NCBI RefSeq assembly: GCF_017254845.1
Contig: NZ_JAFKCU010000002.1
Location: forward strand, 744,001-808,000
From: Algoriphagus pacificus
GTDB taxonomy: Bacteria > Bacteroidota > Bacteroidia > Cytophagales > Cyclobacteriaceae
Direction: 5' to 3'
Length of the DNA stretch: 64,000 nt
Positions within the stretch are counted from its first letter, which is position 1. Each line of letters starts with the position of its first letter. The notes below the pieces were generated by a model that did no database searches, was not told where the DNA came from, and saw only the letters and a program-made list of their open reading frames with translations. Shown one piece after another: positions 13,516-30,826 of this stretch. Made by a program: the position numbers and the translations under genes.

Positions 13516-13533
13516 GAAATATAAAAATCTGTC

Positions 13534-13559
13534 AAAAAGTCCTGAATTCAGGACTTTTT
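13534..13559 (+). terminator. Terminator after the E2 gene
   Basis: A perfect 26-base palindrome (AAAAAGTCCTGAA and its complement) lies 18 bases after the E2 stop; the A-arm and T-arm make it usable in both directions. Confidence 0.88.
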
Positions 13560-13651
13560 GCTTTTTGTATGGTTATTGGTAGGATTGGGAGAGAGAAAAG
13601 TTTTTTATTAAAAGATCCAGTTTATTTAAAACTGATATTCAAGCATAAAAC

Positions 13652-14194: not shown

Positions 14195-14209
14195 AACAAG
14201 AAATTTTTA

Positions 14210-14238
14210 AGCCGGAGATTTATTCTCCGGCTTTTTTT
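14210..14238 (+). terminator. Terminator after hslV
   Basis: A 9-bp stem AGCCGGAGA/TCTCCGGCT with a 5-base loop is followed by a run of seven T residues. Confidence 0.92.
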
Positions 14239-14299
14239 GCTCTTTTTTAAACCTGATCAATGCTTTGGGTGTTATGCAAGAGATTATCATCTATTAATT

Positions 14300-14965
14300 A
14301 TGGAGTCTACCAAAACAAAAAGAACAAGCAAGAAAGATTATAGAAAACTGATTTTGGACGGTTTTAAAAACCATGTGTTGGAAAACGGAAGTTCACCAAA
14401 ATCAGTGTTCAAATTTGCCAAGGATTTGGGAATGAAGGAGGAGGATTTTTATACTTGGTTTACTTCTTTTGATGCGATCAAATCTGCAATCTGGCTAGAA
14501 ATATTTGACGATACTCTAAAGCAGATAGAAGCTCAAGAGGTCTTTAAAGAATACAGCGCAAGAGAAAAATTTCTTGGGTTTTTATTCACCTGGATTGAAG
14601 AATTGAAGAAAAACCGTTCCTATCTGTTGAGCCTATATCAAGATAATAAACCTGCAATGGCGGCTTTTCCAAAGGAAATAGGAGACTTCAAACAGAAGTT
14701 TAAGGAATTTGCAAGCGAGATTATTTTGGAAGGAAAAGAAACTGAGGAAATAGCCAATAGGCCTTTTATCAGTGATAGATACGATGAAGCCCTATGGGTT
14801 CAAGTTTGGTTTGTTTTCAAATACTGGATTGATGATAGATCTCCAAGATTCGAAAAAACAGATGCCGCTATAGAAAAATCAGTGAATTTAGCCTTTGACC
14901 TGATGGGTAAAAGTGCCTTGGATTCATTTATTGATTTTGCAAAATTCATGTACCAATCTAAATAA
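14300..14965 (+). CDS. TetR-family-like regulator paired with an AarF kinase
   Basis: A 221-residue protein with a TetR-type N-terminal helix-turn-helix (about residues 12-58: ILDGFKNHVLENG, then SVFKFAKDLGMKEEDFYTWF) and an all-helical C-terminal domain suited to dimerisation and ligand binding. The ATG at 14300 was chosen because longer readings begin with TTG at 14237 inside the hslV terminator. Its TAA is immediately followed by the ATG of the AarF/UbiB gene, so the pair is one operon; the combination recurs in Bacteroidota. The helix-turn-helix is less canonical than in classical TetR proteins, so the protein may be a non-DNA-binding relative. Ligand and targets are unknown. Confidence 0.75.
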   Translation: MESTKTKRTSKKDYRKLILDGFKNHVLENGSSPKSVFKFAKDLGMKEEDFYTWFTSFDAIKSAIWLEIFDDTLKQIEAQEVFKEYSAREKFLGFLFTWIEELKKNRSYLLSLYQDNKPAMAAFPKEIGDFKQKFKEFASEIILEGKETEEIANRPFISDRYDEALWVQVWFVFKYWIDDRSPRFEKTDAAIEKSVNLAFDLMGKSALDSFIDFAKFMYQSK

Positions 14966-16288
14966 ATGATGGCTGAAAAAATGAATGAACAGGAATCTAT
15001 TCCAGTTTCAAAAGTACAACGTGCTGCCAAGTTTATTTCTACGGGTGCGAGAGTAGGGGGGAATTATGTAAAGCATTATGCCAAAAAGGTGGTGAATCCA
15101 AGTTTGGATAAGGAAGAGCTACATCAAAATAATGCATCTGATATTTACAATTCTTTGAGTCAGTTGAAAGGTTCTGCTCTCAAAGTGGCTCAGATGATGT
15201 CCATGGATAAGAATTTGTTGCCAAGAGCTTACCAAGACAAGTTTACCATGGCGCAGTATTCTGCCCCTCCTTTGTCATTTCCATTGGTTGTAAAGACCTT
15301 TCAAAAGTATTTCGGGAAATCTCCTGAGCAGCTATTTGAAACTTTTACAAGATCGGCAGTAAATGCTGCTTCCATTGGGCAGGTTCATAAAGCCACGAAG
15401 GATGGAAAAACCTACGCAGTTAAAATTCAATATCCAGGGGTAGCAGATTCTGTAAGTTCTGATTTAAAATTGGTTAGGCCATTTGCTTTGAGGTTGTTGA
15501 ATATGAATGAGCGCGAGTTGGATCATTACATGGCGGAAGTAGAAGAAAAGCTATTAGAAGAAACCGATTACGTACTGGAAATCCAGAGATCCAGAGAGAT
15601 TTCAAGTGCCTGTGAACATATTCCTCATCTCAAGTTTCCTACCTACTATGATGAGCTTAGCTCGGATAGAATCATCACCATGGATTGGATTGAGGGGAAA
15701 CATCTAAAAGAATGGTTGGACCTTAATCCAAGTCAGGAATCAAGAAACCAAATTGGACAGGCCTTGTGGGATTTTTACCATCACCAAGTTCATAATTTAA
15801 AACAGGTCCATGCAGATCCACATCCAGGAAACTTTATCGTTCAGGAAGGAGATCAACTTGGTATAATTGATTTTGGTTGCGTTAAAGTTATTCCAGAAGA
15901 TTTTTACAATGGATATTTCGCGTTGATCAAGAAAGATCTTTTGATCAATCAGGAAGAATTAGATCAGATATTCTACGATTTAGAATTTATCACCGATAAA
16001 GATTCCAGCGAAGAGCAAGCTTATTTCAAAGGAGTATTTAAGGAAATGATTTCCTTACTTGGAAAGCCTTTTCATGTTGATAAATTTGATTTTGCGGATG
16101 ATGGGTTCTTTGAGCTGATCTTTCAGTTGGGTGATCGAATCTCGAATGATAAAATGTTTAAAAAATCAAGGCAGGCAAGGGGATCGAGACATGGTCTGTA
16201 TGTAAACCGTACCTACTTTGGATTGTATAATCTTTTGAATCAATTACAGGCAGAGGTAATCACTACCAAGCCAGCTTGGTTAAAATAA
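14966..16288 (+). CDS. ABC1/AarF/UbiB-family atypical kinase
   Basis: A 440-residue member of the UbiB/COQ8/ADCK family. The family-specific motifs are intact: the KxGQ-type region (Lys68-Gly69, Lys73, Gln76), the Ala-rich nucleotide loop AASIGQVHKA (134-143), the invariant Lys153 in AVKIQ, the catalytic HADPHPGN (282-289) and the metal-binding IDFG (Asp302). Members act as atypical ATPases or kinases supporting isoprenoid-quinone and other lipid pathways. The C-terminal membrane anchor of proteobacterial UbiB is not evident. Bacteroidota make menaquinone, so a direct ubiquinone role is unlikely. It starts directly on the stop of the TetR-like gene. Confidence 0.9.
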   Translation: MMAEKMNEQESIPVSKVQRAAKFISTGARVGGNYVKHYAKKVVNPSLDKEELHQNNASDIYNSLSQLKGSALKVAQMMSMDKNLLPRAYQDKFTMAQYSAPPLSFPLVVKTFQKYFGKSPEQLFETFTRSAVNAASIGQVHKATKDGKTYAVKIQYPGVADSVSSDLKLVRPFALRLLNMNERELDHYMAEVEEKLLEETDYVLEIQRSREISSACEHIPHLKFPTYYDELSSDRIITMDWIEGKHLKEWLDLNPSQESRNQIGQALWDFYHHQVHNLKQVHADPHPGNFIVQEGDQLGIIDFGCVKVIPEDFYNGYFALIKKDLLINQEELDQIFYDLEFITDKDSSEEQAYFKGVFKEMISLLGKPFHVDKFDFADDGFFELIFQLGDRISNDKMFKKSRQARGSRHGLYVNRTYFGLYNLLNQLQAEVITTKPAWLK

Positions 16289-16317
16289 AAAAGGGAAGCT
16301 AAATGCTTCCCTTTTTT
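16287..16317. terminator. Bidirectional terminator between convergent genes
   Basis: An A-run, the stem GGGAAGC/GCTTCCC with a 5-base loop, and a T-run sit between the aarF stop and the stop of the convergent dehydrogenase gene; it can work on both strands. Confidence 0.92.
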
Positions 16318-16318
16318 G

Positions 16319-17527
16319 TTATTCTGCAGTTTCCTGATAGGTTACTCGGTATATGACACCAGCCATATCGTCCGAAACTAACAAACTTCCATCTGGCAAT
16401 TCCTGAACATCAACTGGTCTTCCCCAAACTTCCTGAGATGCATCGTCTAGCCAGCCTTCAATAAAGATTTCTTCTCCGGTTACATTTGAATTAGCGTCTA
16501 CTTTTTCTAGCGCTACCACATAACCAGCTTTTTTACTTCTATTCCAAGATCCATGCTTTGCTACGAAGATTTGATTTTGGAAAGTATCAGGGAACATTCC
16601 ACCCTCATAAAAACGCATTCCTAGTGGTGCATTGTGTGGTCCCATCAAAGCAGCTGGAGCGACATAATCACTTTCAGCTCCTCCAGCATCACCAAATTCA
16701 GGATCTTTCACATCCCCGGCATGCCAATAAGGATATCCAAAGTGTTGTCCAGCCTCTGTGATTTTGTTTAACTCACAGTTAGGGATATCATCACCCAACA
16801 TATCACGTCCATTGTCAGTAAACCATAGATTTCCTGTTTTAGGATTCCAATCAAAACCCACGGTATTTCTTACGCCATGGGCATAAACTTCCGGGCTTGG
16901 ATTTGGAGCAGTTACATCTAAACTTGTGATACTTGCAAAAATCTCTTCTTCTGGATCACAAATATTACAAGGAGCACCTACGGGCACATATAATTTTCCG
17001 TCAGGACCAAAAGAAATAAACTTCCATCCATGATGGGTTTCAGTAGGATAGCCATCGTAAACAACTTCAAAGCTTGGATTTCCTAAGTTGTTTTTAATGT
17101 CTTTGAATTTGATGATTCTACTTACTTCTGCCACATATAAGTCTCCGTTTTTATAAGCAACTCCATTTGGCATTTGAAGATCCTCAGCGAGCACAAATTT
17201 AGAATCGGCTTTGCCATCGGCATTTTCATCTACGATCGCGTAGACTTTTCCCTCTTGTCTGCTGCCAACGAAGATGATTCCTTCTTCAGAAATCGCCATG
17301 GATCTTGCGTTAGGTACATCAGCAGCCCAGACATCAATTTTAAAATTGGCTGGAAGGGTAAGTTTATCCAACTGAACTTCTGCAGTTGCCATTGAAATGT
17401 CTGATTTGTTGGCTCCATCGACAGTTTCAATGGGTTTAAGCTTGGCTTCTTCTTTTTGGTGACATCCTACGGTAAAAGAACCTGCAGCCAAAAGCATAGA
17501 AAATGTTAATGTTGATATGGTTTTCAT
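16319..17527 (-). CDS. Sorbosone-dehydrogenase-like beta-propeller lipoprotein
   Basis: A 402-residue protein with a lipoprotein signal (lipobox TVGC, Cys22). The remainder matches the PQQ-dependent glucose/sorbosone dehydrogenase type of six-bladed propeller: MPNGVAYKNGDLYVAEVSRI, FGPDGKLYVPVGAPCN, YAHGVRNTVGFDWNPKTGNLWFTDNGRD and a C-terminal QELPDGSLLVSDD. The Cys pair in GAPCNICDPEEE (near residues 190-195) is usual in this subfamily. Enzymes of this group oxidise sugars or aldoses with PQQ, but many members are uncharacterised and PQQ use is not proven here. Placement is probably the periplasmic or outer-membrane face. It is a single gene ending at the shared terminator. Confidence 0.87.
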   Translation of the reverse strand: MKTISTLTFSMLLAAGSFTVGCHQKEEAKLKPIETVDGANKSDISMATAEVQLDKLTLPANFKIDVWAADVPNARSMAISEEGIIFVGSRQEGKVYAIVDENADGKADSKFVLAEDLQMPNGVAYKNGDLYVAEVSRIIKFKDIKNNLGNPSFEVVYDGYPTETHHGWKFISFGPDGKLYVPVGAPCNICDPEEEIFASITSLDVTAPNPSPEVYAHGVRNTVGFDWNPKTGNLWFTDNGRDMLGDDIPNCELNKITEAGQHFGYPYWHAGDVKDPEFGDAGGAESDYVAPAALMGPHNAPLGMRFYEGGMFPDTFQNQIFVAKHGSWNRSKKAGYVVALEKVDANSNVTGEEIFIEGWLDDASQEVWGRPVDVQELPDGSLLVSDDMAGVIYRVTYQETAE

Positions 17528-17607
17528 GTTTTTTGTTGTCTTTTATTAAGTAAACTAATGAATTTCAGAATGTTCTTTTTTCAAAGGTTTATGAACGGGT
17601 TAATCTT

Positions 17608-17615
17608 TATTTTTG
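17608..17615 (+). promoter_or_regulatory. Candidate -7 box of the ABC-F gene
   Basis: TATTTTTG matches TAnnTTTG and ends four bases before the ABC-F ATG, which would make the message leaderless or nearly so. A -33 TTG is not evident. Confidence 0.35.
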
Positions 17616-17619
17616 GGGC

Positions 17620-19542
17620 ATGTTATCGATTAGCAATCTCTCTTACTACATAGGCGGAAGGCCATTATACGAAAATGCCAATTTGCACATTAAACCAAAA
17701 GATAAAATTGGTTTAGTGGGTCAAAATGGTACTGGCAAATCTACGCTTTTGAAAATTATTAATGGCGATTATCAGCCAAGTTCTGGGGAAGTTCAGAAAG
17801 CAAAAGACTGTACCATTGGTTTTTTGAACCAGGATTTACTTTCCTACCAGTCTGATGAAAGTATTTTAAATGTTGCTTTGGCAGCATTTAAAGAAACGCT
17901 AGCTCTTCAGGATGAAATTGACGAGGTACTGAAGAAGATGGAAACAGATTATTCAGAAGAGATCATCAATAGATTGGCATTTCTTCAGGATCGCTTTGAG
18001 GCAAATGAAGGATATACCATCAAAGCCAAAGCGGAAGAAGTGCTGGAAGGGATTGGATTCAAATCTGCAGACCTAGATAAACCGCTTCGGACTTTTTCCG
18101 GAGGTTGGAGAATGCGAGTGATGCTCGCCAAATTATTGTTGGAAAAGCCATCCTTGCTGATGCTGGATGAACCTACCAACCACTTGGATTTGCCTTCCAT
18201 CGAATGGGTGGAAAACTACATGAAAAACTACGAAGGGGCAGTTATTGTTGTTTCTCACGATCAGACTTTTTTGGACAACTGCATCAGCAGCACAGTTGAG
18301 GTTGCAAATAATACTTTGACGCTCTATTCAGGCAATTATTCCTTCTACAAGGAAGAGAAAAAGGAGCGGATGGAAATCCAGCAGAATGCTTATGAGAATC
18401 AGCAACAGATGATCAAGCAGACGGAAAAATTCATTGAAAGATTCCGAGCTAAAGCCACAAAATCCAATCAGGTTCAATCCAGAATCAAAGCTTTGGATAG
18501 GATGGAGCGGGTTCATGAAGTAGTGAATGATGAGGTTTCGGTGAATTTCAAATTCAAATTCTCCAAACAATCTGGAAGAGATGTTGTGACCCTTGATAAT
18601 ATTTCTAAAGCCTACGGAGACAATGTGATTTTGAAAAATACCTCGGCAAGAATAGAAAGGGGAGACAAAATTGCTTTGATCGGAGCAAACGGTAAAGGGA
18701 AATCTACCTTGCTAAGGATTATTGATGGCTCTGAAAGAGGTATTGAAGGAAGAACGGAAGGTTATAATGTGATCAAATCCTTCTTTGCGCAGCACCAATT
18801 GGAAGCTTTGACCTTAGAAAATGAGATTCTTCAGGAAATGGCCCAAGCCGGAAGTGCTAAGACAGAAATGGAGCTCAGGGGAGTTTTGGGATGCTTTTTA
18901 TTTTCCAACGAGGAGGTATTCAAAAAAATCAAAGTCCTTTCAGGAGGGGAGAAATCAAGAGTTGCTCTGGCAAAAACGCTTATTTCAGAAGCTAATTTCC
19001 TCTTACTGGATGAACCGACCAACCATTTGGATTTCCAGTCAGTAAATATTTTGATTCAAGCACTTCAGCAATACGAAGGCACTTTTGTGACTGTTTCTCA
19101 CGATAGACATTTCATCAGGGGAGTGGCCAATAAAATCTGGTACATTGAAAATCACGAGATCAAAGAATACCCTGGAACTTATGCAGAATATGAGTTTTGG
19201 AGATCTCAACAGCTAGAAAACCAACAAGAAGTAACTGAAAAAGCTCCCAAGAAAGCCAAACCAGCACCACAAAAAAGTCAGGTAGAACTCAATCAAGCAA
19301 AAAAGGATTTAAGGAAATTAGAAGAAAGTCTATTTGAAGTAGAATCTGAAATTGAGAAACTTGAGACCAAAAAGGAAAAGATAGAAGCTAAAATGGCTGA
19401 TCCTGAGCTTTATTCAAAAGAAACCGAATTGAAGCAGGTACAGGATGAACATCAAGAGGTGCATAGAAAACTCGATGATTTAAATAAAAAGTGGGAAAAG
19501 TTGGTAGATGAAATTTCGACTTTGCAAGAGGCAATTGCTTGA
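17620..19542 (+). CDS. ABC-F family ribosome-associated ATPase (Uup-like)
   Basis: A 640-residue protein with two ABC ATPase domains and no membrane segment, the ABC-F layout. Domain 1: Walker A at 34-42 (GQNGTGKST), signature near 158 (SGGWRMRV), Walker B near 181-187 followed by EPTNHLD. Domain 2: Walker A at 355-363 (GANGKGKST), signature near 440 (LSGGEKSRVAL), Walker B near 461-467. Between them lies the charged P-site tRNA-interaction linker (about 245-315). A lysine/glutamate-rich C-terminal coiled coil (about 555-640) is like that of Uup. ABC-F proteins act at the ribosomal E site in translation or antibiotic protection. The start MLSISNLSYY is conserved, which supports the ATG at 17620. 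Confidence 0.93.
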   Translation: MLSISNLSYYIGGRPLYENANLHIKPKDKIGLVGQNGTGKSTLLKIINGDYQPSSGEVQKAKDCTIGFLNQDLLSYQSDESILNVALAAFKETLALQDEIDEVLKKMETDYSEEIINRLAFLQDRFEANEGYTIKAKAEEVLEGIGFKSADLDKPLRTFSGGWRMRVMLAKLLLEKPSLLMLDEPTNHLDLPSIEWVENYMKNYEGAVIVVSHDQTFLDNCISSTVEVANNTLTLYSGNYSFYKEEKKERMEIQQNAYENQQQMIKQTEKFIERFRAKATKSNQVQSRIKALDRMERVHEVVNDEVSVNFKFKFSKQSGRDVVTLDNISKAYGDNVILKNTSARIERGDKIALIGANGKGKSTLLRIIDGSERGIEGRTEGYNVIKSFFAQHQLEALTLENEILQEMAQAGSAKTEMELRGVLGCFLFSNEEVFKKIKVLSGGEKSRVALAKTLISEANFLLLDEPTNHLDFQSVNILIQALQQYEGTFVTVSHDRHFIRGVANKIWYIENHEIKEYPGTYAEYEFWRSQQLENQQEVTEKAPKKAKPAPQKSQVELNQAKKDLRKLEESLFEVESEIEKLETKKEKIEAKMADPELYSKETELKQVQDEHQEVHRKLDDLNKKWEKLVDEISTLQEAIA

Positions 19543-19582
19543 TTCTGACTTTTATCCCGGTCTAATTGATTAATTTGAAAGA

Positions 19583-20854
19583 ATGAAAATAAAAAAACTG
19601 CTTCTTTCAGTGCTTTTTTTTGGGTGGGCTTTTCTTGTTTCCGCTCAAATTGAGGACAAAGTTTTCAAAGACCATATTCAGTCTGTCAGATTATTTCCAA
19701 GAGGAGCAACTACTGGAAGTCAATTGGATTCTCCTATTGTTCCGATTTCAGAGAGTCAAAAATTAGTTCTGCTATTTGATGATCTGGCATATGATCCGGA
19801 AATGTATTCGGCTAAATTGATTCATTGTGATGCTGATTGGCAAGAGTCATCTTTAAAGAATAATGATTTTTTAAATGCTTTCAATGAATTCAATATTCAG
19901 GATTACGACTATTCAGTAAATACACGAATTCCTTACATCCATTATAGGTTTCAGATTCCCCAGGTAACCAAATCCGGGAACTATGTGGTAAAAGTTTATC
20001 GCCGAAGAGACGAAAACGAAGTGATTCTGACCAAACGATTTATGGTTTATGAGGATCTTTTGGTCGTGGGAGCGGCGGTTGTTCCTCCTTCTCAGACTTC
20101 AGGAAGAAGAGGTTCCCAACAAATCAATACCGTAGTTAATTATTCGAAACTGGATGTAATTAATCCTGATTCTCAAATCAAAGTTGTGATTAGGCAGAAC
20201 CAACGCTGGGATAATTCCAAATTCCTTACTAAGCCTACTTTTATGAACCAAAGTTCTAAAGTTCTTAGATACGAGGATTTTGATGGAGCAAATGCTTTTG
20301 ATGCCAGCAATGAGTTTAGATTTATAGATCTACGGTTTATGCGAGCGAGAGGCCAAAATATGGCTTCGGTACGAGTAGAGGAGGACGCTGTTTATGGGGA
20401 ATCTTTGGCAATCACACCAAGACCAAATGAGGTGTATTCTCAATACTTAGACTTGAACGGGCAATACATCGTAGATAATAATGATAGACCTGGAGGAGAT
20501 TCTGAGTTAGAAAGCCAATATGTTTATATGACTTTCAATGCAAGAGTTCAAAAAACTTCCCAACCCATTTATCTCTTAGGATCTTTGACTAATTGGGGAA
20601 AAGGCCCAGAATCAGAAATGAAATGGGATGAAAAAGAACAATTATACAGGACTTCTCTTTTGCTGAAGCAGGGATGGTACGATTTTCAACTTGGGGTAAA
20701 AGAACAAGGCTCCTTCGTCACTGATCTATTTGAAGGCAGTCATTTTGAAACTGAAAATATATACGAGGTACTCGTTTATTACCGAGGACTCGGATCTAGA
20801 TATGACCAGTTGGTAGGTTTTGTGAGCTTACAACCCAACCGAAGAAGGTTATAG
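19583..20854 (+). CDS. Type IX secretion plug-type protein (DUF5103)
   Basis: A 423-residue exported protein with a signal peptide ending near LVSA-Q (residue 21). The sequence (IQSVRLFPRG, PIVPISESQKLVLLFDDL, YSAKLIHCDADW, IPYIHYRFQIPQVTKSGNYVVKVYR) is the DUF5103 family. A DUF5103 protein was identified as the plug that closes the periplasmic side of the SprA channel in the type IX secretion system, and the family is restricted to Bacteroidota. The fold is predicted to be all-beta, with a C-terminal carbohydrate-module-like segment (YLLGSLTNWG). It follows the ABC-F gene by 40 bases and could be co-transcribed. No other T9SS gene is in the window. Confidence 0.87.
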   Translation: MKIKKLLLSVLFFGWAFLVSAQIEDKVFKDHIQSVRLFPRGATTGSQLDSPIVPISESQKLVLLFDDLAYDPEMYSAKLIHCDADWQESSLKNNDFLNAFNEFNIQDYDYSVNTRIPYIHYRFQIPQVTKSGNYVVKVYRRRDENEVILTKRFMVYEDLLVVGAAVVPPSQTSGRRGSQQINTVVNYSKLDVINPDSQIKVVIRQNQRWDNSKFLTKPTFMNQSSKVLRYEDFDGANAFDASNEFRFIDLRFMRARGQNMASVRVEEDAVYGESLAITPRPNEVYSQYLDLNGQYIVDNNDRPGGDSELESQYVYMTFNARVQKTSQPIYLLGSLTNWGKGPESEMKWDEKEQLYRTSLLLKQGWYDFQLGVKEQGSFVTDLFEGSHFETENIYEVLVYYRGLGSRYDQLVGFVSLQPNRRRL

Positions 20855-20866
20855 AAAAAGTGTCAT

Positions 20867-20903
20867 AAAAAAACACCTCTTGAATCTCAAGAGGTGTTTT
20901 TTT
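20867..20903. terminator. Bidirectional terminator
   Basis: An A-run, a 10-bp stem CACCTCTTGA/TCAAGAGGTG with a 3-base loop, and a T-run separate the plug-type gene from the convergent cas6-like gene. Confidence 0.93.
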
Positions 20904-20905
20904 GT

Positions 20906-21796
20906 TTATGCTTCAGAATCGCCTTCCTCAGATTCTTCATCTGCAGGAGGGGCTACGTTTTGCCTTACTCGCTCATTTGGCTTGTAAGGGACAAAACCTT
21001 CTCTTTTAAATTTATAAGTAGTTGTTCTTGCTCCCGGAGGGTGTGTCGCAAGATCAAGCATTCCAAAACCTTTGTGGGTAAATGCTCCTAATCCGCATTT
21101 GAATACAAAATCCTGAACTTCAGGTGCTGCATACAAAGTGAAAGGTAAAGTATAACCTCTTACTTCATATTTAACGTCCATGTCATATACTGCGTAGATC
21201 CTTGCAAACTTTTTCTGCTGTTCTTTCAGCTTGTTTACATAGACCATGTCAGGTACCACTTGGAACTTGAAGAAAGATTCCATTTGCTCTGGAGTATACC
21301 AGCCTGATCTCTCCATACGCGTCAAAGTAGATTCGTACAATAGATCTGAGAATTCGTCGCTATCCGGACTGATAAATCTCTTTCCTGCTTCTTCATTGAA
21401 AGCAGGAATGATCAATACCAAAGGAGAAATACAAACGAATTTATTGGAAGTCTCCAATACAGGTTCTACTTCAATTTCAGTGTACTCAGGGACCAAGATC
21501 AAGTTTCCAAGCTCCACTTTAGGAGTTGCGAAAACCTGCTCCAACAAATAATCCATAAAGTCTTCACTTTGAGAAGACAGCACTAGGGTAACTAAGCTGG
21601 AATAATAATGCAAACCACTTCTACTTACTTTAGTCTGACCTTTAAGGCCAGAAAAGTTGAAGAAATTGTAATTGTAAAATTCTTCTCGGCCACCTTTCAC
21701 GATCAATCCTTTAAGGAATTGCGCTAAGATGTACTGATGATGGAAAGGCAAATAGGAGCCTTTGTTTTTTAGGGAAAATATAAGTCTAACTCTCAC
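20906..21796 (-). CDS. Stand-alone Cas6-like endoribonuclease homologue
   Basis: A 296-residue protein with the Cas6 RAMP outline: an N-terminal strand followed by PFHHQYILAQFLKGLI (17-32), an FNFSGL segment (46-51, like FTYSLF of Pyrococcus Cas6), a second ferredoxin-like half, and the glycine-rich loop GLGAFTHKGFGML (235-247). By hand alignment the position of the Pyrococcus catalytic histidine (eight residues before FTYS) is a glutamate near 38; the only histidines are 19, 20, 63, 241 and 252. A basic stretch (about 255-280) is followed by an acidic tail EESEEGDSEA. The start is GTG at 21796, with no ATG available. No cas gene or repeat array occurs in the window. The fold assignment is good; nuclease activity is uncertain. 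Confidence 0.82.
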   Translation of the reverse strand: MRVRLIFSLKNKGSYLPFHHQYILAQFLKGLIVKGGREEFYNYNFFNFSGLKGQTKVSRSGLHYYSSLVTLVLSSQSEDFMDYLLEQVFATPKVELGNLILVPEYTEIEVEPVLETSNKFVCISPLVLIIPAFNEEAGKRFISPDSDEFSDLLYESTLTRMERSGWYTPEQMESFFKFQVVPDMVYVNKLKEQQKKFARIYAVYDMDVKYEVRGYTLPFTLYAAPEVQDFVFKCGLGAFTHKGFGMLDLATHPPGARTTTYKFKREGFVPYKPNERVRQNVAPPADEESEEGDSEA

Positions 21797-21893
21797 GGTG
21801 ATTTAAAAATAAATTGAGACAATAGATAAATTAAAATATATACGCTATTGGGTGATTATGAAATGCGAAATTACAAATTTTTTCAAGAAATTC

Positions 21894-22991
21894 TTAAACA
21901 TTAAACCTAAAATGCATGATATCGCCATCTTTCACCACGTATTCTTTCCCCTCTATGGAAATTTTTCCATTCTCACGGCACCCTGCTTCTGTTTTGAATT
22001 GTTGATAATCAGGTAATTTAATGACTTCAGCTTTAATAAATCCTCTTTCAAAATCTGTATGAATTACTCCGGCAGCTTGAGGAGCTTTCCAACCTTTCTT
22101 AATTGTCCAAGCGCGAACCTCCTGCACACCAGCTGTGAAATAGGTAATTAAGTCTAATAACGAATAAGCTGCTGCGATTAGTTTATTCAGACCACTTTCT
22201 TCTAAACCATATTCTCCTAAAAACAGTTCTTTTTCTTCAATATCCTCAAATTCTGCGATCTGAGATTCAATGGCAGCACAGAGTACAATTACCTCGGCAT
22301 TCTCCTCTTTAACATTCTCACGCAATTGATCGACAAATTTGTTTCCTGTCAATATGCTTGCCTCATCAACATTGGCAACGTAAAGCACAGGTTTGATTGT
22401 CAATAGGTGCAAATCTCTAACAGCTTCTAAGTCTTCTTTTTCGACATCTACAGAGCGTGCGTTCTTACCAGAAGTCAAAGCTTCTTTAAAAAGCATCAAC
22501 GTTTCCAGCTCTTTTCGAGCTTTGGCATCACCTGATTTTGCAACCTTTTCAGTTTTCAGGATTTTCTTGTCTACTGATTCAAGATCCTTCAACTGAAGTT
22601 CTGTATCGATGACTTCTTTGTCAAAAATAGGATCGACACTTCCTGCCACGTGAACGATATTTTCATCTTCAAAACATCTGATCACATGGATTACAGCATC
22701 AACTTCCCGGATATTCGCAAGAAATTTATTTCCAAGACCTTCACCTTTGCTGGCACCTTTTACTAAACCTGCGATGTCTACAAACTCGATAACAGTAGGT
22801 AATACACGTTGAGGATTAACCAATCCTTCTAGGATCTGCAATCTTTTGTCAGGAACGGTAACTACTCCTACGTTTGGTTCGATGGTACAAAAAGGGAAAT
22901 TTGCAGCTTCTGCTTTCGCGCTGGAAAGGGCATTAAATAGAGTGGATTTTCCAACATTTGGAAGTCCTACGATGCCACATTGTAAGGCCAT
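21894..22991 (-). CDS. ychF: Ribosome-binding GTPase/ATPase YchF
   Basis: A 365-residue Obg-superfamily protein. G1 is GLPNVGKS (9-16), G3 is DIAGLVKGA and the G4 region NVDE replaces the usual NKxD, the feature that makes YchF/OLA1 prefer ATP. A helical hairpin insertion and the C-terminal TGS domain (about 280-365, ending in [11 protein letters not shown]) complete the family layout. The protein is cytosolic and ribosome-associated, with a role in stress response. The gene lies 6 bases downstream of an AI-2E/PerM-type permease gene and is probably co-transcribed with it. Confidence 0.96.
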
Positions 22992-22997
22992 TAGTTA

Positions 22998-24089
22998 TTA
23001 TTTTATTTTAAAGATTCTATACGATTTATACCCTTGATAGAATTCCATAATTGAAACCCGAAAGATGGTATAAACCGGGATGGCAAAAATCATCCCTGCT
23101 ACGCCGGCGATTTTTGCACCGGCAAAGATAACAACAAAAATTTCAAGGGGATGCGCTTTTACAGATTTAGAAAATATCATAGGCTGTAAAAAGATGTTGT
23201 CGGTCACCTGGACAGCTCCAAATACAGACAGAATTTTTAAAAGTAGCAGATTCAATTCTTTGGTTTCTTCAAAATTACCTGTCGAAATTCCGACAATAAT
23301 CCCAAAAGAAGCCCCTAAAATGGGTCCAGCGTAAGGGATCAGATTTGCCACTGCTGCAAAAAGGGCGATGGTCAAAGCATAATCTACTCCAACAAGAGTC
23401 AGTCCAAAACTAGCCAGCGAAAAGATCGCCAACATCTGCAATAGTAAACCAGAAAGGTAATTGGAAAGTAGTTTTTCAACTTTGGTAAAAGTCGCAACAG
23501 AAAGTTCAAAATAAGGGTTAGGGATTAAATTGAGCAGGTTTCTGCGCAACAAGCCATTTTCAAGTAATAAGAAAAATGTGATAAAAAGAACTGCCAAAAG
23601 TCCGATAAATAGACTGCTGGTAGTGTTGAGGATATTTGAAATGATCATCCCAAAATCCACACTTTTGATCATATTGATGATTTGGGATTTCAACTCTTCA
23701 AAAAGATATCCCGGCTTATTTTCCAATAACTGATAACGGAACAAGAAATTTTCAACTTTAGAAACTGGAATATGAATTTCTTGGTAAATGGTATCTAAAT
23801 CCAGTTCACTCAAAATCACTATTTGATTATTGATTAATGGAAAAAATAGCAGACTTAACAAAACCAAGATTAGGACAATCGATGAGTAGGAGATGATAAT
23901 CGCCATCCATCTAGGAATGTGCTGACCTAAGAGATGGAAGTCGTTTAAATGATTTGTCATCGGTCTCAGCAAAGCCGCGATAATAAGCGAAATGACCAAG
24001 TATAGGGTGATATTGGAAAAATACCAGCCAAACAGCAGGAAGGCCACAATGATGAGAATCAGATATATAAAAAAACGCTGCATAGACAT
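22998..24089 (-). CDS. AI-2E/PerM-type membrane permease (copy 1)
   Basis: A 363-residue polytopic membrane protein with about seven or eight hydrophobic segments, two at the N-terminus, a periplasmic hydrophilic loop (about 95-150), and a conserved C-terminal half with LIPYAGPILGASFGI and IAGVAGMIFAIPVY. This is the AI-2E transporter family. Known members include the E. coli autoinducer-2 exporter TqsA and sodium/proton antiporters; substrate cannot be read from the sequence. It precedes ychF by 6 bases. A second paralogue lies at 34667-35764 with similar length and the same C-terminal motif. Confidence 0.88.
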   Translation of the reverse strand: MSMQRFFIYLILIIVAFLLFGWYFSNITLYLVISLIIAALLRPMTNHLNDFHLLGQHIPRWMAIIISYSSIVLILVLLSLLFFPLINNQIVILSELDLDTIYQEIHIPVSKVENFLFRYQLLENKPGYLFEELKSQIINMIKSVDFGMIISNILNTTSSLFIGLLAVLFITFFLLLENGLLRRNLLNLIPNPYFELSVATFTKVEKLLSNYLSGLLLQMLAIFSLASFGLTLVGVDYALTIALFAAVANLIPYAGPILGASFGIIVGISTGNFEETKELNLLLLKILSVFGAVQVTDNIFLQPMIFSKSVKAHPLEIFVVIFAGAKIAGVAGMIFAIPVYTIFRVSIMEFYQGYKSYRIFKIK

Positions 24090-24090
24090 A

Positions 24091-24117
24091 AAATAAAAGG
24101 AGGCATCTCTGCCTCCT
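24091..24117 (-). terminator. Terminator after the PUR-protein gene
   Basis: On the minus strand the stem AGGAGGCA/TGCCTCCT with a 4-base loop is followed by TTTTA. It lies between the DUF3276 stop and the permease start. Confidence 0.75.
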
Positions 24118-24165
24118 CTAATATACTATTTCTGCTCATTGAAAATAATTTTCAAAACTCAGAAA

Positions 24166-24489
24166 CTATTCCCATTTCAACTCATTGGATGATTCTTCTT
24201 CTTCTCTCTCGAATTGGTCAAAGTCTACGTCTGGAAGCAATTCATTCTTCACATGATCTACTGTTTCATTCAATGCTTCTACAAATTTGAAAAAGTCTTC
24301 CTTGTAAAGGAAAATCTTATGTTTTTCGTAGGAAAAAGAATCTCCATTGACTCTTCTTTTACTTTCCGTGATGGTTAAATAATAATCGTTAGCACGGGTC
24401 GATTTAATATCGAAAAAGTAGGTTCTCTTTCCTGCCTTCACTTTTTTCGAAAAGATTTCTTCCCTGTCGTAACCTCTTTGATCTTCCAC
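24166..24489 (-). CDS. PUR-family DNA/RNA-binding protein (DUF3276)
   Basis: A 107-residue protein with the PUR-alpha-type single repeat: REEIFSKKVKAGKRTYFFDIKSTRANDYYLTITESKR then an amphipathic helix (FFKFVEALNETVDHV) and an acidic tail. DUF3276 proteins are conserved in Bacteroidota and related to Borrelia BpuR, which binds nucleic acid. I place the start at GTG 24489 (VEDQRGYDREE) rather than the TTG at 24543: the longer reading passes through a promoter-like TTG-N19-TATCTTTA element at 24514-24543, and family members begin with this segment. It has its own terminator and is probably monocistronic. Confidence 0.85.
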   Translation of the reverse strand: MEDQRGYDREEIFSKKVKAGKRTYFFDIKSTRANDYYLTITESKRRVNGDSFSYEKHKIFLYKEDFFKFVEALNETVDHVKNELLPDVDFDQFEREEEESSNELKWE

Positions 24490-24513
24490 AGTTCTTCTTG
24501 TTAATGATTTTAA

Positions 24514-24543
24514 TAAAGATAAATACGACCTAAGATAAGACAA
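24514..24543 (-). promoter_or_regulatory. Candidate promoter of the PUR-protein gene
   Basis: On the minus strand TTG is followed after 19 bases by TATCTTTA, one mismatch from TAnnTTTG. The predicted start leaves a leader of roughly 18 bases before GTG 24489. Confidence 0.5.
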
Positions 24544-24659
24544 TTAGTAGCTAGAAATCAAAGCTTGGTAGTACTTTTTTTCAACCAAAAGTCAAATTTT
24601 ATACGTAAGATGTTAAAATTCAGGGGTGAATTTCATTGGATGAAAAGCTTGTAAAAAGT

Positions 24660-25010
<351 letters not shown>

Positions 25011-25025
25011 TCAATTATTTAAATC

Positions 25026-25056
25026 CAAAAGTAACAAGCTTGAAGAGAAGAGACAA
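25026..25056 (-). promoter_or_regulatory. Promoter of the ferredoxin gene
   Basis: On the minus strand TTG, a 20-base spacer and TACTTTTG (exact TAnnTTTG match) form the best Bacteroidota-type promoter in the window, about 18 bases upstream of the ferredoxin ATG. Confidence 0.65.
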
Positions 25057-25119
25057 TAAAAAAATGATGAGTGTGGGAATTAAAATTTATTCTTTCCTGC
25101 TCCTTCGGCTCAAAATCGA

Positions 25120-25127
25120 TAAATTTG
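25120..25127 (+). promoter_or_regulatory. Candidate -7 box of the acyl-CoA reductase gene
   Basis: TAAATTTG matches TAnnTTTG and lies 18 bases before the ATG at 25146, supporting that start over the GTG at 25071. No clear -33 TTG. Confidence 0.45.
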
Positions 25128-25145
25128 CAGCTCCAAAATTTGTCT

Positions 25146-26162
25146 ATGAACCTGAATCAAAGAATTGCCGCTTTTGTCCAACTAGGAAAAAATATCCAGC
25201 AAATGGATGAAGAAACCCAAGAGGAGCTTTTTTGGAGAGCTCAAAATGGAAATAACTGGTTTACGCAAGATTCTGTAAGTTCTGCTTTGGCAGGAATCAG
25301 TCATTTTTTATTACCTGAGAATCTAGAAAAATGGCTGGCTACTTATCGGATCCCAGAAAACATAAGACCTAAATCAGTTGGAATTCTTATGGCAGGCAAT
25401 ATTCCTGCGGTAGGTTTTCATGATCTTTTAACAGTTTTGATTTCAGGAAACAAGGCTTGTGTAAAGCTAAGTTCATCAGATTCAATTTTGATGAATTGGT
25501 TGATTTCAGAACTGAAAACTATCGAGCCAGCATTCAATGAGCTGATTTCTGTTGAGGAAATGCTAAAGGAGAAAGATGCCTATATCGCCACTGGAAGTGA
25601 TAATTCAGCGAGGTATTTCAATTACTATTTTGGTAAATATCCTAGTGTAATTAGACAGAATAGAACTTCAATTGCAATTTTATCAGGTGAGGAAACTAGC
25701 GATGAGTTGGCTGAGTTTGGAAAAGATGTATTCCAATATTTTGGTTTGGGTTGCAGAAACGTTTCTAAGGTTTTTGTGAAATCAGAGGAACAGCTGACTC
25801 AGATATTGGATGCATTTGAGGTTTATTCTAAAGTCTCAAATCATCACAAATACCACAACAATTATGACTACAATAAATCCATCTATTTAGTCAACAATGA
25901 AAAGCATCTGGATAATGGATTTCTCCTTTTGAAAGAGTCCGATGAATTAGTGTCACCTATTTCAGTTCTTTATTTTGAGTTTTATTCTGATAAAGATGCT
26001 TTAAAGCAGAAATTGGATGCCATTTCAGACAAAATTCAATGTGTGGTAGCTAATCCGGAATACTGGGAAGGTGCAGTTACATTTGGAAATGCGCAATATC
26101 CTGAATTATGGGATTATGCTGATCAAGTAGATACCTTGGCTTTTTTGATCAGTTTAAACTAG
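25146..26162 (+). CDS. LuxC-type acyl-CoA reductase
   Basis: A 338-residue aldehyde-dehydrogenase-like protein of the LuxC family, which reduces acyl-CoA to aldehyde with NADPH. Motifs: VGILMAGNIPAVGFHDLL (cofactor-side loop), CVKLSSSDS, ATGSDNSARYF, and the Cys203 region FGLGCRNVSKVFV, which holds the catalytic cysteine in this family. No lux genes are present; the role may be in lipid or aldehyde metabolism. The start is ATG 25146, because the upstream GTG reading would span the -7 box and adds a non-conserved extension. It diverges from the ferredoxin gene and its TAG overlaps the convergent histidine kinase stop by four bases (CTAG). Confidence 0.85.
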   Translation: MNLNQRIAAFVQLGKNIQQMDEETQEELFWRAQNGNNWFTQDSVSSALAGISHFLLPENLEKWLATYRIPENIRPKSVGILMAGNIPAVGFHDLLTVLISGNKACVKLSSSDSILMNWLISELKTIEPAFNELISVEEMLKEKDAYIATGSDNSARYFNYYFGKYPSVIRQNRTSIAILSGEETSDELAEFGKDVFQYFGLGCRNVSKVFVKSEEQLTQILDAFEVYSKVSNHHKYHNNYDYNKSIYLVNNEKHLDNGFLLLKESDELVSPISVLYFEFYSDKDALKQKLDAISDKIQCVVANPEYWEGAVTFGNAQYPELWDYADQVDTLAFLISLN

Positions 26163-27937
26163 GCTTTTACAGAACTTTCATCCTCCGACTTGGGTAGGTA
26201 AATACAGAATTTTGTCCCTTTTCCTAATTCAGATTGGATTTCAAGTTTTCCATTATTTTTCTGCACATATTCTCTGACCAAAATTAAGCCGAGACCTGTT
26301 CCACTCTCATTGCTTTGGCCTTTTGTAGTGAAGGATATCCCTTGATTGAGCTTCAAAAGATTCTCTTCCGAGATTCCAACACCTGAATCCTTAACACAGA
26401 TTTTGACTTGATTAGCCTCATAATGCGCTGTTAATTTTATGGTGCTGTTGATATCTGAAAATTTGATTGCATTATTAATCAAATTTCTAACTACCAATTC
26501 AATCATATTTCGATCGGCATAGACAAAAATTTCTTCTAGTTCTACCATTTCTATCCTGATTCCTTTTTCGATCGCTATTCTTTCGAGCAGATTTTTTTGT
26601 TGCACCAAGACTTTGCAAACATCAAAGGAATGTAGCTGGATGTACTCGCCTCTCAATTGGGAACTTGTCCAAGCAAGAAGGTTTTCCATGAGAATTGCCA
26701 CGTTTTCCATGTTTTTGGAAATTTCAGGCATCATTTCCATGAATTCTTCTTGCGTCACCAAGCCACTTTGAGTCAAGTGAATTAATTCTTTAACGCCGAA
26801 AATAGGACCTTTTAGATCATGAGAGATGATGCTAAAGTATTTGTCTTTCAGATCATTAAGTTGCTGAAGTTCTTCCTTTTGTTTTTGTAAAGTTTCCTTT
26901 GTATTGATTTCCTCAGTAATATTTTCAAAAAGCAATATTGTTCCACTTAGAGAGGAGCCTTTCTCCAATAGCGGGATGGATTCAACTCTATAAAATCTTT
27001 TTTCCTCTCCAAATTCTGCTGAAAACTCTATCAGTTTTTTTTCTCCTTCTTTAAGTAGTTTTTGAATGGGAGGATGGGAAGAAAAAAGCTCGAGTGCAAA
27101 ACCACCAGTTTTTACTTTATCAGGATTTTTGAAAAATCGTAGTAGTGCAGGATTGAAATCAACAATGATTTTTTTAGCATCCACCACCAAAACTCCTTTA
27201 GTCAAAGCTTCCATTACTTTACCAAGAGCAACTGGTTTGATGCTAAATAGATTGAATTTCAGGATTGCAAATGCAATAATTAGGTATGTGAGAAGGAAGG
27301 CATAAGGAGTCAGATCAATATTTGCATAGGGTCTAATCAGCCCGCTTTGATAGAAAATATTAAATAAAATCGGAATTAGGCCAGCGACAAAAATCAACCG
27401 GGTTTGGGTTTTATACAAAGGATCTGCAAACCTAAACCTTCTCCATAAAATTACCATTCCAATAACAAAAGTTAGGTAGGAGTAAACCACATTTACCAAA
27501 TACCAAGGTCCAATTGTAATTTCAAGGACAGGGAAAGGTCCTGAATTACTTACAGAGGTAGCTGCATAATGCAACTGATGAAAATCATTGGTAAGAACCA
27601 GGATGTATGAAATAATGGGTATTGCAAAAATCAGAGTAAAAAGAAGCTTTTTATTTCTTGGTCGGAATCCTGTGTAATACATACAAAATAACATCCAAAA
27701 AGGAGGTGTAGTCAGGATCCCTAAATATTCAAAATTGATGTAAAAGAGCATTCGCTCTTTAGTAGTAGATGAAAGCTCAAGGCCGTAAAAAAATCCCCAA
27801 ATCGCCACCGCTAGCATTGTCAATGCAATCCATCGTGTGGAATCTCCTAGTCTAATAGCTATGAATGCAGAAAGTAATGCAACTAAGGTTCCAGAAACAA
27901 GCAGGGCTACAGAATATGGATTTAGTATAAATTCCAC
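26159..27937 (-). CDS. Sensor histidine kinase with N-terminal 7TM module
   Basis: A 592-residue membrane kinase. Residues 1-225 form seven hydrophobic helices of the histidine-kinase N-terminal 7TM type (PYSVALLVSGTLVALLSAFIA, GPWYLVNVVYSYLTFVIGMVIL). A PAS-like domain (about 235-345) is followed by a short coiled coil and HisKA with the phosphoacceptor His373 in SHDLKGP. The ATPase domain has the N box NLINNAIKFS, G1 DSGVGIS and G2 GTGLGL. No cognate response regulator is adjacent. The start is GTG at 27937; an in-frame stop 24 bases upstream leaves no ATG. The gene converges on the acyl-CoA reductase with overlapping stop codons and no visible terminator. Confidence 0.92.
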   Translation of the reverse strand: MEFILNPYSVALLVSGTLVALLSAFIAIRLGDSTRWIALTMLAVAIWGFFYGLELSSTTKERMLFYINFEYLGILTTPPFWMLFCMYYTGFRPRNKKLLFTLIFAIPIISYILVLTNDFHQLHYAATSVSNSGPFPVLEITIGPWYLVNVVYSYLTFVIGMVILWRRFRFADPLYKTQTRLIFVAGLIPILFNIFYQSGLIRPYANIDLTPYAFLLTYLIIAFAILKFNLFSIKPVALGKVMEALTKGVLVVDAKKIIVDFNPALLRFFKNPDKVKTGGFALELFSSHPPIQKLLKEGEKKLIEFSAEFGEEKRFYRVESIPLLEKGSSLSGTILLFENITEEINTKETLQKQKEELQQLNDLKDKYFSIISHDLKGPIFGVKELIHLTQSGLVTQEEFMEMMPEISKNMENVAILMENLLAWTSSQLRGEYIQLHSFDVCKVLVQQKNLLERIAIEKGIRIEMVELEEIFVYADRNMIELVVRNLINNAIKFSDINSTIKLTAHYEANQVKICVKDSGVGISEENLLKLNQGISFTTKGQSNESGTGLGLILVREYVQKNNGKLEIQSELGKGTKFCIYLPKSEDESSVKA

Positions 27938-28264
27938 AGGACAGGGTGTTTCAGAGATTTAAAATTTAGACTCTGTTTTGGTGATTTCAGGATAATAATA
28001 AAGCATTATTTACAACTAAAAAAACTTTGTTGCCACAGTTGGTAAAATCTGGGTTTCTCTAAAATAATTAACAGAAGAAGATCTGGTTTTTTTGTTTTTT
28101 GATCAATAAAAATGCTTTTGACGACAGTCTCAGGTTTATAATGGTTTTAAATTAGGATAAACGCTGATTTACAGATTGTATGCGGCTACGTATTATTGGG
28201 CTATATTTCTATATTTGCCTTCGGTTATAAAGAACCTTTTATACAACATAAAATACCTTTACAA
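27938..28264. other. Intergenic region between divergent kinase and aconitase genes
   Basis: No gene is supported. The stretch holds the divergent control regions. Only one strong box, TATATTTG at 28210-28217 on the plus strand, was recognised; nothing convincing was found for the kinase gene. Confidence 0.6.
28210..28217 (+). promoter_or_regulatory. Candidate -7 box of the aconitase gene
   Basis: TATATTTG matches TAnnTTTG and lies about 47 bases before the ATG at 28265. A properly spaced TTG is not evident. Confidence 0.4.
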
Positions 28265-30532
28265 ATGGCATTTGATATAGAAATGATCAAGGCAGTATAT
28301 GCGAAATATCCTGAGCGTATCGCAGCTGCCAGGAAGGTGGTGGGTAAACCACTTACTTTAGCAGAGAAAATACTTTACGCTCACCTTTGGGAAGGAGATG
28401 CAACGGAAAGCTTTGAAAGAGGGAAATCTTACGTGGATTTTGCTCCTGATAGAGTTGCCATGCAAGATGCTACCGCTCAAATGGCTCTTTTGCAGTTTAT
28501 GCAAGCTGGAAAAGACAAAGTAGCTGTTCCTTCCACTGCGCATTGCGATCACTTGATTTTGGCTCAAAATGGAGCAAAGGATGATTTGAAGAGCTCTCTT
28601 ACCGCCAGCGGTGAGGTATTTAACTTTTTGGAGTCAGTTTCTAATAAATATGGAATCGGATTTTGGAAGCCAGGCGCAGGTATCATTCACCAAGTAGTTT
28701 TAGAAAACTATGCGTTCCCAGGTGGAATGATGATTGGTACTGATTCTCACACTGTAAATGCCGGAGGTTTGGGTATGGTGGCGATTGGTGTTGGTGGTGC
28801 TGATGCAGTGGATGTGATGGCAGGAATGGCTTGGGAATTGAAATTTCCTAAGTTGATTGGTGTGAAATTGACTGGCAGAATGAATGGATGGACGTCTGCG
28901 AAAGATGTCATCTTGAAAGTTGCTGGTATCCTAACAGTAAAAGGTGGTACTGGATGTATCGTTGAATATTTTGGTGACGGAGCTATTTCTCTTTCTGCTA
29001 CCGGAAAAGGAACGATCTGTAACATGGGTGCTGAAATTGGAGCGACAACCTCAACTTTCGGTTATGACGAAGCAATGGAGCGTTACCTAAAAGCTACTGA
29101 CCGTGCAGATGTTGCTGAATTGGCAAACGGTGTTAAGGAGCATTTGACTGGTGATCCTGAAGTTTACTCAAATCCTGAGAAATACTTTGATCAAGTAATT
29201 GAAATTGATCTTTCTACGTTGGAGCCTCACGTGAATGGTCCATTCACTCCAGATAGAGCAACTCCAGTTTCTCAAATTAGAGCGGAAGCAGAAAAGAATG
29301 GCTGGCCGACTAAAGTTGAGTGGGGATTGATCGGTTCTTGTACCAACTCTTCTTATGAGGATTTGTCAAGAGCGGCTTCTATTGCTCAGCAGGCTGTTGA
29401 TAAAAAATTGAAGACTAAAGCTGAGTTTGGAATCAACCCAGGTTCTGAGCAAGTTCGATATACTGCAGATAGAGATGGTTTATTGAAGATTTTCGAAGAT
29501 CTAGATGCAACAATCTTTACCAATGCTTGTGGACCTTGTATCGGTCAGTGGGCAAGGGCAGGAGCCAACAAGCAAGAAAAAAACACCATCGTTCACTCTT
29601 TCAATAGAAACTTCTCTAAAAGAGCTGATGGTAATCCAAACACGCATGCCTTTGTAACTTCTCCCGAAATGGTTGCAGCAATTGCAATTTCAGGTGATTT
29701 AGGCTTTAACCCAATCACGGATACTTTGGTAAATGCTGATGGGGTAGAAGTGAAGTTAGATCCACCGGTTGGAGATGAACTTCCAGAAAAAGGATTTGCT
29801 GTTGAGGATAATGGCTATCAAGCTCCTGCTGAAGATGGAAGTGGAGTTCAAGTAGTTGTAAACCCTGATTCTAACCGTCTTCAATTATTAGATCCTTTTG
29901 CTCCTTGGGATGGAAAAAATATCACTGGAGCCAAGCTTTTAATCAAAGCATTTGGTAAGTGTACAACTGACCACATTTCGATGGCAGGTCCTTGGTTGAG
30001 ATTCAGAGGACATTTGGATAATATCTCTGACAACTGTCTGATCGGAGCTGTTAACGCATATAATCAAGCGACTAACTCGGTTAAGAGTCAATTGACTGGT
30101 GAATACGGTCCAGTTCCTGCTACTCAAAGAGCTTACAAAGCTGCTGGAGTACCAACGATCGTAGTGGGTGACCAAAACTATGGTGAAGGTTCTTCTAGAG
30201 AGCATGCTGCTATGGAGCCAAGACATTTAGGTGTCAAAGCTGTTTTGGTTAAGTCATTTGCTCGTATTCATGAAACGAACTTGAAGAAGCAAGGTATGCT
30301 AGCTTTGACTTTTGCAAATGAAGCCGACTACGATAAAATCCAAGAAGATGACACGATCAACTTCCTTGATTTGGATCAGTTTGCTCCTGAGAAACCACTC
30401 ACGTTAGAGTTTGTTCATGCGGATGGTTCTAAGGATACTATCATAGCAAACCATACTTATAATGAAGCTCAAATCGATTGGTTTAGAGCAGGTTCTGCTT
30501 TGAACTTGATTAAGGAAAAAGCTAAGGCTTAA
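28265..30532 (+). CDS. Aconitate hydratase (mitochondrial-type)
   Basis: A 755-residue aconitase, the TCA-cycle enzyme converting citrate to isocitrate in the cytoplasm. The 4Fe-4S ligands are Cys359 ([10 protein letters not shown]), Cys422 and Cys425 (ACGPCIGQW). The C-terminal swivel domain carries the [11 protein letters not shown] substrate loop. The length of about 755 and motifs such as [10 protein letters not shown] and [23 protein letters not shown] match the eukaryotic mitochondrial ACO2 type rather than the roughly 900-residue AcnA or the AcnB type. The ATG at 28265 ([12 protein letters not shown]) is chosen; the in-frame extension to 28196 overlaps the -7 box and is not conserved. 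A terminator follows at 30551. Confidence 0.95.
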
Positions 30533-30550
30533 TAGTATAGATTCTAGTGA

Positions 30551-30582
30551 AACCGCAGCATTTAAATGTTGCGGTTTTTTTT
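30551..30582 (+). terminator. Terminator after the aconitase gene
   Basis: AACCGCAGCATTT pairs with AAATGTTGCGGTT (one G-T pair) and is followed by a T-run, 19 bases after the stop. Confidence 0.88.
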
Positions 30583-30826
30583 ATGATTTTTTTACCGAAG
30601 AAATTAAGTCTATCGGAAGTGAATTGCTTCAAATCAAAAATCCCCCGTTTATCCCGAATTTTTCATTTCAATTGTGTCGATTGAAAATTTTTTATGCAAA
30701 AAAATGTATTTATAAATCATAATATTTGTTATGAAATACAAATTGATGTATGTTTACGACAGAGATATCTAATTATGATTTTTCTGAAATAAGAAAACAA
30801 ACGCCCTTAAATAATAACTAATTCGA

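Follow-up and report, generated by a model that had tools for sequence, protein, structure and literature searches.

The window, a 64,000-nucleotide stretch of the Algoriphagus pacificus genome, contains a Cas6-like gene, named C6 here, located between ychF and a T9SS plug-type gene (Table 1). This placement had been described in a first-pass annotation and was confirmed by Pfam matches to PF06071 upstream and to PF17116 downstream, in convergent orientation. Frame 1 of the plus strand is broken by stops across 20906-21796, and the C6 open reading frame is that of the minus strand. Rfam searches of window positions 12000-32000 yielded three matches, all below gathering and dismissed as chance, including a weak mir-5045 match at the hairpin that follows the C6 stop codon.

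Table 1. Features at the C6 locus (window positions or C6 residues) and CRISPR-Cas loci elsewhere in the same genome (contig:positions)
Feature	Position	Strand	Remarks
Cas6-like gene C6	20906..21796	minus	296 aa, GTG start
Cas_Cas6_C match in C6	residues 113-249
Glycine-rich loop GLGAFTHKGFGML of C6	residues 235-247
Clade-specific C6 tail	from about residue 252		from orthologue alignments
C6 start codon	21794-21796		mostly non-ATG among orthologues
ychF-C6 spacer, 97 nt	21797..21893	minus	A+T-rich, TAnnTTTG-like box
ychF (Obg-family ATPase, PF06071)	21894..22991	minus	directly upstream of C6
AI-2E family transporter gene (PF01594)	22998..24089	minus	in block at 13/46 loci
DUF3276 gene (PF11680)	24166..24543	minus	in block at 20/46 loci
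T9SS_plug_1st gene (PF17116)	19583..20854	plus	convergent with C6; 21/46 loci
Hairpin then T-run just past C6 stop	20862..20905	.	intrinsic-terminator-like, between convergent genes (sequence by eye)
Type I-B operon cas8b-cas7b-cas5b-cas3-cas6-cas1-cas2-cas4	L119:3997-12179		own genome, arrays after it
Type I-B Cas6, 227 aa	L119:9615-10298		own genome; best PADLOC model PDLC02104, E 8.6e-93
cas9-cas1 locus	L120:8100-15206		own genome, near 26-copy array

C6 matches Pfam Cas_Cas6_C at 75.1 bits (cut-off 23) and NCBIfam TIGR01877 cas_cas6 at 67.9 bits (cut-off 58.65). All 12 PADLOC models that matched at E <= 10 are Cas6-named, with Cas6b the best (90.8 bits), and PF10040, another Cas6 model, had no match in the A. 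pacificus genome. The Cas6 hallmark motifs quoted in the first-pass annotation (PFHHQY, FNFSGL and the glycine-rich loop) are all present, and within the loop glycines 235, 243 and 245 are invariant and glycine 237 is found in 45 of 46 sequences. The basic segment and acidic tail that had been noted in place of the usual C-terminus are absent from most of 23 aligned orthologue rows, a few of which carry unrelated tails; judged from these alignments, the acidic tail is not a feature of the C6 family.

Start codons among 89 close C6 orthologues are GTG in 87 and TTG in two. A wider, redundant set of 103, for which a script picks the start nearest model position 1, gave 63 GTG, 16 TTG and 24 ATG. 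The box in the spacer between ychF and C6 resembles a Bacteroidetes -7 element, and inspection of this spacer by eye revealed no conserved hairpin.

Catalytic positions and related Cas6 proteins

The catalytic triad of P. furiosus Cas6 is numbered Tyr31/His46/Lys52 (PMC3652601). Profile alignment of 46 C6 sequences (alignment A3) with this protein places Tyr31 on Lys29, His46 on Glu38 and Lys52 on Asn44 of C6. The active site was further compared in a joint alignment of 46 C6 and 20 other Bacteroidota Cas6 sequences; at least one further cas-like gene was found in the fetched stretch for 16 of these 20 (cas3-only cases may be generic helicases), and cas1 for 11. The column taken as the catalytic His, through its likeness to the P. 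furiosus Cas6 segment, holds His in 17/20 other Cas6, mostly as LHxxGY, and is a gap in 46/46 C6. At the Tyr position, 16/20 other Cas6 have Tyr and C6 has a mix of Lys, Glu and Gln, while at the Lys position 15/20 have Lys and C6 has a mix of Asn, Glu and Thr. In 19/46 C6 some His does occur, at varied places, on the stretch from the HHQ motif to the FxFS strand. Glu38 is invariant in a 34-row alignment of near relatives and is present in only 7/46 sequences of the wider set. The earlier claim that the catalytic His is absent, with its position falling near Glu38, is borne out as to the absence and as to the alignment with P. furiosus His46, but replacement by Glu is not: because the Bacteroidota alignment shows an apparent deletion, it is more accurate to describe the His-bearing segment as missing. 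On the evidence of these alignments, C6 very probably lacks the canonical catalytic residues.

Loss of the His does not prove C6 inactive, since SsoCas6 is described as having no catalytic His and still cutting, with lysines important (PMC3652601). SsoCas6 and other crenarchaeal Cas6 without His share with C6 the lack of His at the canonical place; SsoCas6 is active and makes crRNA, whereas C6 occurs in genomes without Cas1. Residues invariant in 46/46 C6 include H20, S49, K52, S66, P125, P144, Y186, K195, P218, A223, G235, G243, G245 and D248, and H20 stands where 14/20 other Cas6 have Tyr. Invariance of H20, K52 and K195, together with the reported variability of Cas6 active sites (His in alpha-1 for Cas6e and Cas6f, none for SsoCas6; PMC3652601), would fit an active endoribonuclease with a re-invented site, in which H20, located towards the beginning of the first helix, works with K52, Y186 or K195 to cleave a specific cellular RNA. 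We consider such an enzyme possible but unlikely, as C6 keeps none of the three canonical residues in place, the spacer offers no noticed conserved hairpin as substrate, no Rfam match reaches gathering in window positions 12000-32000, and, by profile alignment, the P. furiosus Cas6 residue opposite H20 is likewise a His and lies outside the triad of that protein, so that H20 may serve binding alone.

AF2 models of C6 built from 34- and 54-sequence alignments were poor (mean pLDDT 48.2 and 52.6), and for this reason no C6 residue was placed in three dimensions. Foldseek searches with these poor models gave seven PDB matches at E <= 0.001, all of them Cas6 chains (5yi6, 3qjj, 3ufc, 3i4h), with query TM-scores of 0.32-0.42. 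Searched as a profile against solved structures, C6 matched 5yi6 best (3.8e-17); other matches include 3ufc (4e-17) and PH0350 (3qjj, 5e-16), both scoring better than catalytic P. furiosus Cas6 (4e-9). We take PH0350 (PDB 3QJJ/3QJL/3QJP) to be PhCas6nc, and PfuCas6nc (3UFC) and PhCas6nc are thus among the best solved-structure matches of C6. The former is called non-catalytic (PMC3652601), and the latter is described as inactive, with unstructured RNA bound in its inter-domain cleft (PMC3727216). C6 shares with these Cas6nc proteins the absence of canonical catalytic residues; they are archaeal, while C6 is widely conserved across a bacterial order and its RNA binding is predicted. The nearness of C6 to inactive Cas6 is not exclusive, because the best match, 5yi6, is named an endoribonuclease and has LH at the catalytic His place. 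Catalytic P. furiosus Cas6 (3I4H/3PKM; TIGR01877; PF01881) belongs to the same sequence family as C6 and has a similar glycine-rich loop and a similar P-x-x-H-Q segment; it differs in its Tyr31/His46/Lys52, which are replaced or missing in C6, and C6 lies outside a cas operon.

Distribution and conservation of C6

A scan of genome contigs found 119 relatives of C6, the best 80 of which show 83-98% identity and are mostly from Algoriphagus, the rest of these 80 being from other genera (e.g. Belliella) or from MAGs labelled Cyclobacteriaceae, Cytophagales, Bacteroidetes or Spirosoma fluviale. Algoriphagus itself is classified in Cyclobacteriaceae, Cytophagales. No relatives were found in a scan of viral contigs. 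The genome panels used for counting follow GTDB ranks. A profile of 14 orthologues (A1), used for the family panel, detected full-length C6 in 128/148 genomes of its own family at 307-582 bits, with further matches in those genomes at no more than 32 bits. Of the 20 family genomes without C6, 17 are at least 90% complete. Within the order panel, C6 was found in 129/241 genomes at 194-580 bits, 25 from its own family and 104 from 12 other families (f56, f58, f59, f61, f63, f67, f68, f69, f70, f71, f72 and f74); families f2 and f3, among others, had no match in this panel. The class panel gave 18 matches among 247 genomes, of which 6 are from the own family, 10 score 143-228 bits and 2, at about 25 bits, were not counted. 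Those 10 lie outside the order, in families f93 (5), f108 (3) and f125 (2), and this scattered occurrence could reflect transfer rather than old age. Searched with the deeper profile A3, 61/296 genomes of the phylum panel matched, 8 of them at 378-409 bits, all from the own family, and the rest at no more than 105 bits.

A 66-protein tree groups the 46 C6 in one clade apart from the 20 other Bacteroidota Cas6 with a support of 100/100, in which two of the other Cas6 (L227, L230) and one C6 (L195) have long branches of unsure place. Two Cas6-like proteins outside the C6 clade, L230:7544-8359 (genome G575) and L232:6859-7647 (genome G433), have no His at the catalytic column, lie in surroundings that do not look like CRISPR loci, with no cas gene seen nearby in a limited blastp search, and could represent further lineages of solitary Cas6. 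A Cas6-like match at G173:C1:1060521-1061253 falls within a 649-aa open frame and might be a Cas6 fusion protein.

C6 is under purifying selection. Calculated from the first 250 codons, dN/dS against three close relatives (L001, L003 and L012) takes the values 0.008, 0.006 and 0.023, respectively; dS was computable in these 3 of 10 C6 pairs, synonymous sites being saturated in the other 7. Identity of the C6 core to the same three relatives is 99.6, 100 and 95.2%, compared with 95.3, 95.3 and 89.9% for YchF and 85.6, 90.1 and 75.4% for the AI-2E gene, so that the C6 core is more conserved than YchF among them; in a wider set this order is reversed, with mean distances of 0.29 for YchF and 0.55 for C6. 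Across 89 C6 sequences, including the copy in the window, 105 columns are invariant, and C6 from other families of the order is 39-57% identical to that copy. These data contradict the notion of C6 as an inert relic or passenger, which could have drawn on its absence from 20/148 family genomes and on the lack of any C6 remnant beside ychF in 14 genomes without C6 (one of these possibly ending in a contig break). Given the low dN/dS in the three computable pairs, the conservation above that of YchF in the same relatives and the invariant columns, this notion is extremely unlikely.

CRISPR loci and their relation to C6

Two repeat searches found no CRISPR-like direct repeats in the 64-kb window, in agreement with the previous report of no array there. 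The accompanying statement that the window has no other cas gene rests on a genome-wide Cas1 search, in which the only two matches are each on another contig; family-library searches within the window covered C6 and five neighbours, and no cas genes were found among these five. The genome does contain CRISPR-Cas loci (Table 1). In the arrays that follow the type I-B operon, a script counted a 23-nt core 25 and 9 times. A cas operon and array elsewhere in the genome, with a repeat cleaved by C6, had been named as a finding that would speak against domestication of C6; an operon and arrays do exist, but the operon brings its own cas6. Both this Cas6 and C6 are Cas6-named by PADLOC, but the best model for the former is PDLC02104 and for the latter PDLC01782, and the I-B Cas6 is inside a cas operon near arrays while C6 has no cas genes around it.

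Independence from CRISPR was judged by Cas1 and Cas10-palm matches in the family panel, and arrays were looked for in the window and some fetched stretches. Cas1 (PF01867) was found in 60/148 genomes: 55 carry both C6 and Cas1, 73 C6 alone, 5 Cas1 alone and 15 neither, and the association between the two is not significant (55:73 vs 5:15, Fisher p = 0.15). The Cas10 palm (PF22335) was matched in 10/148 genomes, all Cas1-positive, counts that are upper bounds because the model also matches in an E. coli control. Of the 128 C6-positive genomes, 73 thus lack matches to Cas1 and to the Cas10 palm alike. Where both are on one contig, no strong C6 match is nearer than about 93 kb to Cas1, and 6/9 weak Cas6 matches in the same panel are within 10 kb of Cas1 (by-eye comparison of tables; distances are limited by contig breaks).

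Cas6 apparently acts in trans for the majority of type III loci (PMC12669027), and with CRISPR loci present in its own genome C6 might likewise serve loci encoded elsewhere. On the Cas1 and Cas10-palm counts in the family panel, we rejected this reading as very unlikely: over half of the C6-positive family genomes lack both markers, the I-B locus carries its own cas6, the canonical residues are lost in 46/46 C6, and strong C6 matches, unlike most weak Cas6 matches, stay far from Cas1. The proposal that C6 is a descendant of Cas6 kept as a conserved gene outside any CRISPR locus agrees with its presence in 128/148 family genomes, including 73 that gave no match to Cas1, and C6 is very likely a CRISPR-independent, domesticated Cas6. 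By homology C6 belongs to the Cas6 family, yet as far as its sequence and setting tell, it departs from the CRISPR endoribonuclease Cas6 in two defining features, as it has no catalytic His with Tyr and Lys at the canonical place and is neither encoded in nor dependent on a CRISPR-cas locus. It should not be filed as such an enzyme.

Linkage to ychF and a proposed role in RNA binding

Neighbourhoods were compared at 46 loci (16 from the own family and 30 others), a set distinct from the 46 sequences of A3. At 28 of them ychF is directly upstream of C6 on the same strand, comprising 16/16 in the own family and 12/30 elsewhere. In a redundant set of 187 loci, 160 have ychF within 3 kb upstream, mostly 91-111 nt away. 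The linkage was seen at least once in 11/16 families (f1, f59, f61, f63, f67, f68, f69, f72, f74, f93 and f108), with one locus in f67 (390 nt apart), 1/4 loci in f93 and 2/2 in f108, and was not seen in the loci of f56, f58, f70, f71 and f125. YchF was confirmed by PF06071 in the window and at two loci outside the order (L200, L202), and the YchF encoded beside C6 in f93 and f108 is 60-65% identical. At L200, L202 and L203 ychF is the sole member of the block kept beside C6; no DUF3276, AI-2E or T9SS plug gene was found within four genes on either side of C6 in the rows displayed for loci outside the order. The DUF3276 gene at 24166-24543, recurrent near ychF-C6, could be a further functional partner.

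A search of 14 genomes without C6 (11 of the family's 20 and 3 from other families) detected ychF in every one, with no C6 remnant found within about 1.5 kb on either side, although one of them (L257) ends at a truncated ychF and its lack of C6 may be a contig break. YchF therefore does not need C6, and C6 as an obligate YchF partner was rejected. For the 25 of 46 A3 loci with both genes, C6 and YchF distances are correlated (Spearman 0.57, 0/2000 permutations as high), as expected from shared descent. We know of no ychF linkage for archaeal non-catalytic Cas6. In E. coli, YchF is reported to contact IF3 as well as proteins of the small subunit, and translation of leaderless mRNA to be stimulated when YchF is absent (PMC8138138); in enterobacteria, ychF is described in one operon with pth (PMC8779481).

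The explanation that we favour, and hold to be probable, is that C6 is an exapted Cas6 that likely binds RNA and does not cut it. A CRISPR Cas6 would have been captured, probably early in Bacteroidia, and would then have lost the catalytic-His segment together with its Tyr and Lys partners. Since then its transmission has probably been vertical for the most part, as a chromosomal gene that often follows ychF directly. The protein is predicted to have two ferredoxin-like RAMP domains and to bind a short RNA in the cleft that separates them, in the manner of the inactive Pyrococcus protein, and, with the canonical nuclease site gone, presumably leaves that RNA uncleaved. Gene linkage to ychF suggests that the RNA is tied to translation: it may belong to the translation machinery or be a transcript whose translation YchF regulates. 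A more specific proposal, that C6 and YchF act jointly, either at the ribosome or on particular mRNAs, with the conserved non-AUG start of C6 serving as a feedback switch that YchF/IF3 would read, is doubtful, and we count against the YchF part the 18/46 loci without a ychF neighbour, including 3/4 of those in f93.

Exaptation of CRISPR-Cas, notably by mobile elements, is described as widespread (PMC12669027). If the favoured explanation is true, a Cas6 kept as a conserved chromosomal gene in 13 families of one order, frequently adjacent to ychF, would be a clear recruitment into the cell's own RNA biology. Among the matches listed from the open PMC literature, a scope outside which preprints and most subscription papers fall, no paper was on C6 by title or abstract opening. 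C6 also offers a candidate RNA-binding protein amenable to tests in cultured Algoriphagus. Naming models label this non-CRISPR protein 'CRISPR-associated endoribonuclease Cas6', with TIGR01877 matching 46/46 members of A3 at E <= 1e-5, and CRISPR counts in Bacteroidota may be inflated as a result.
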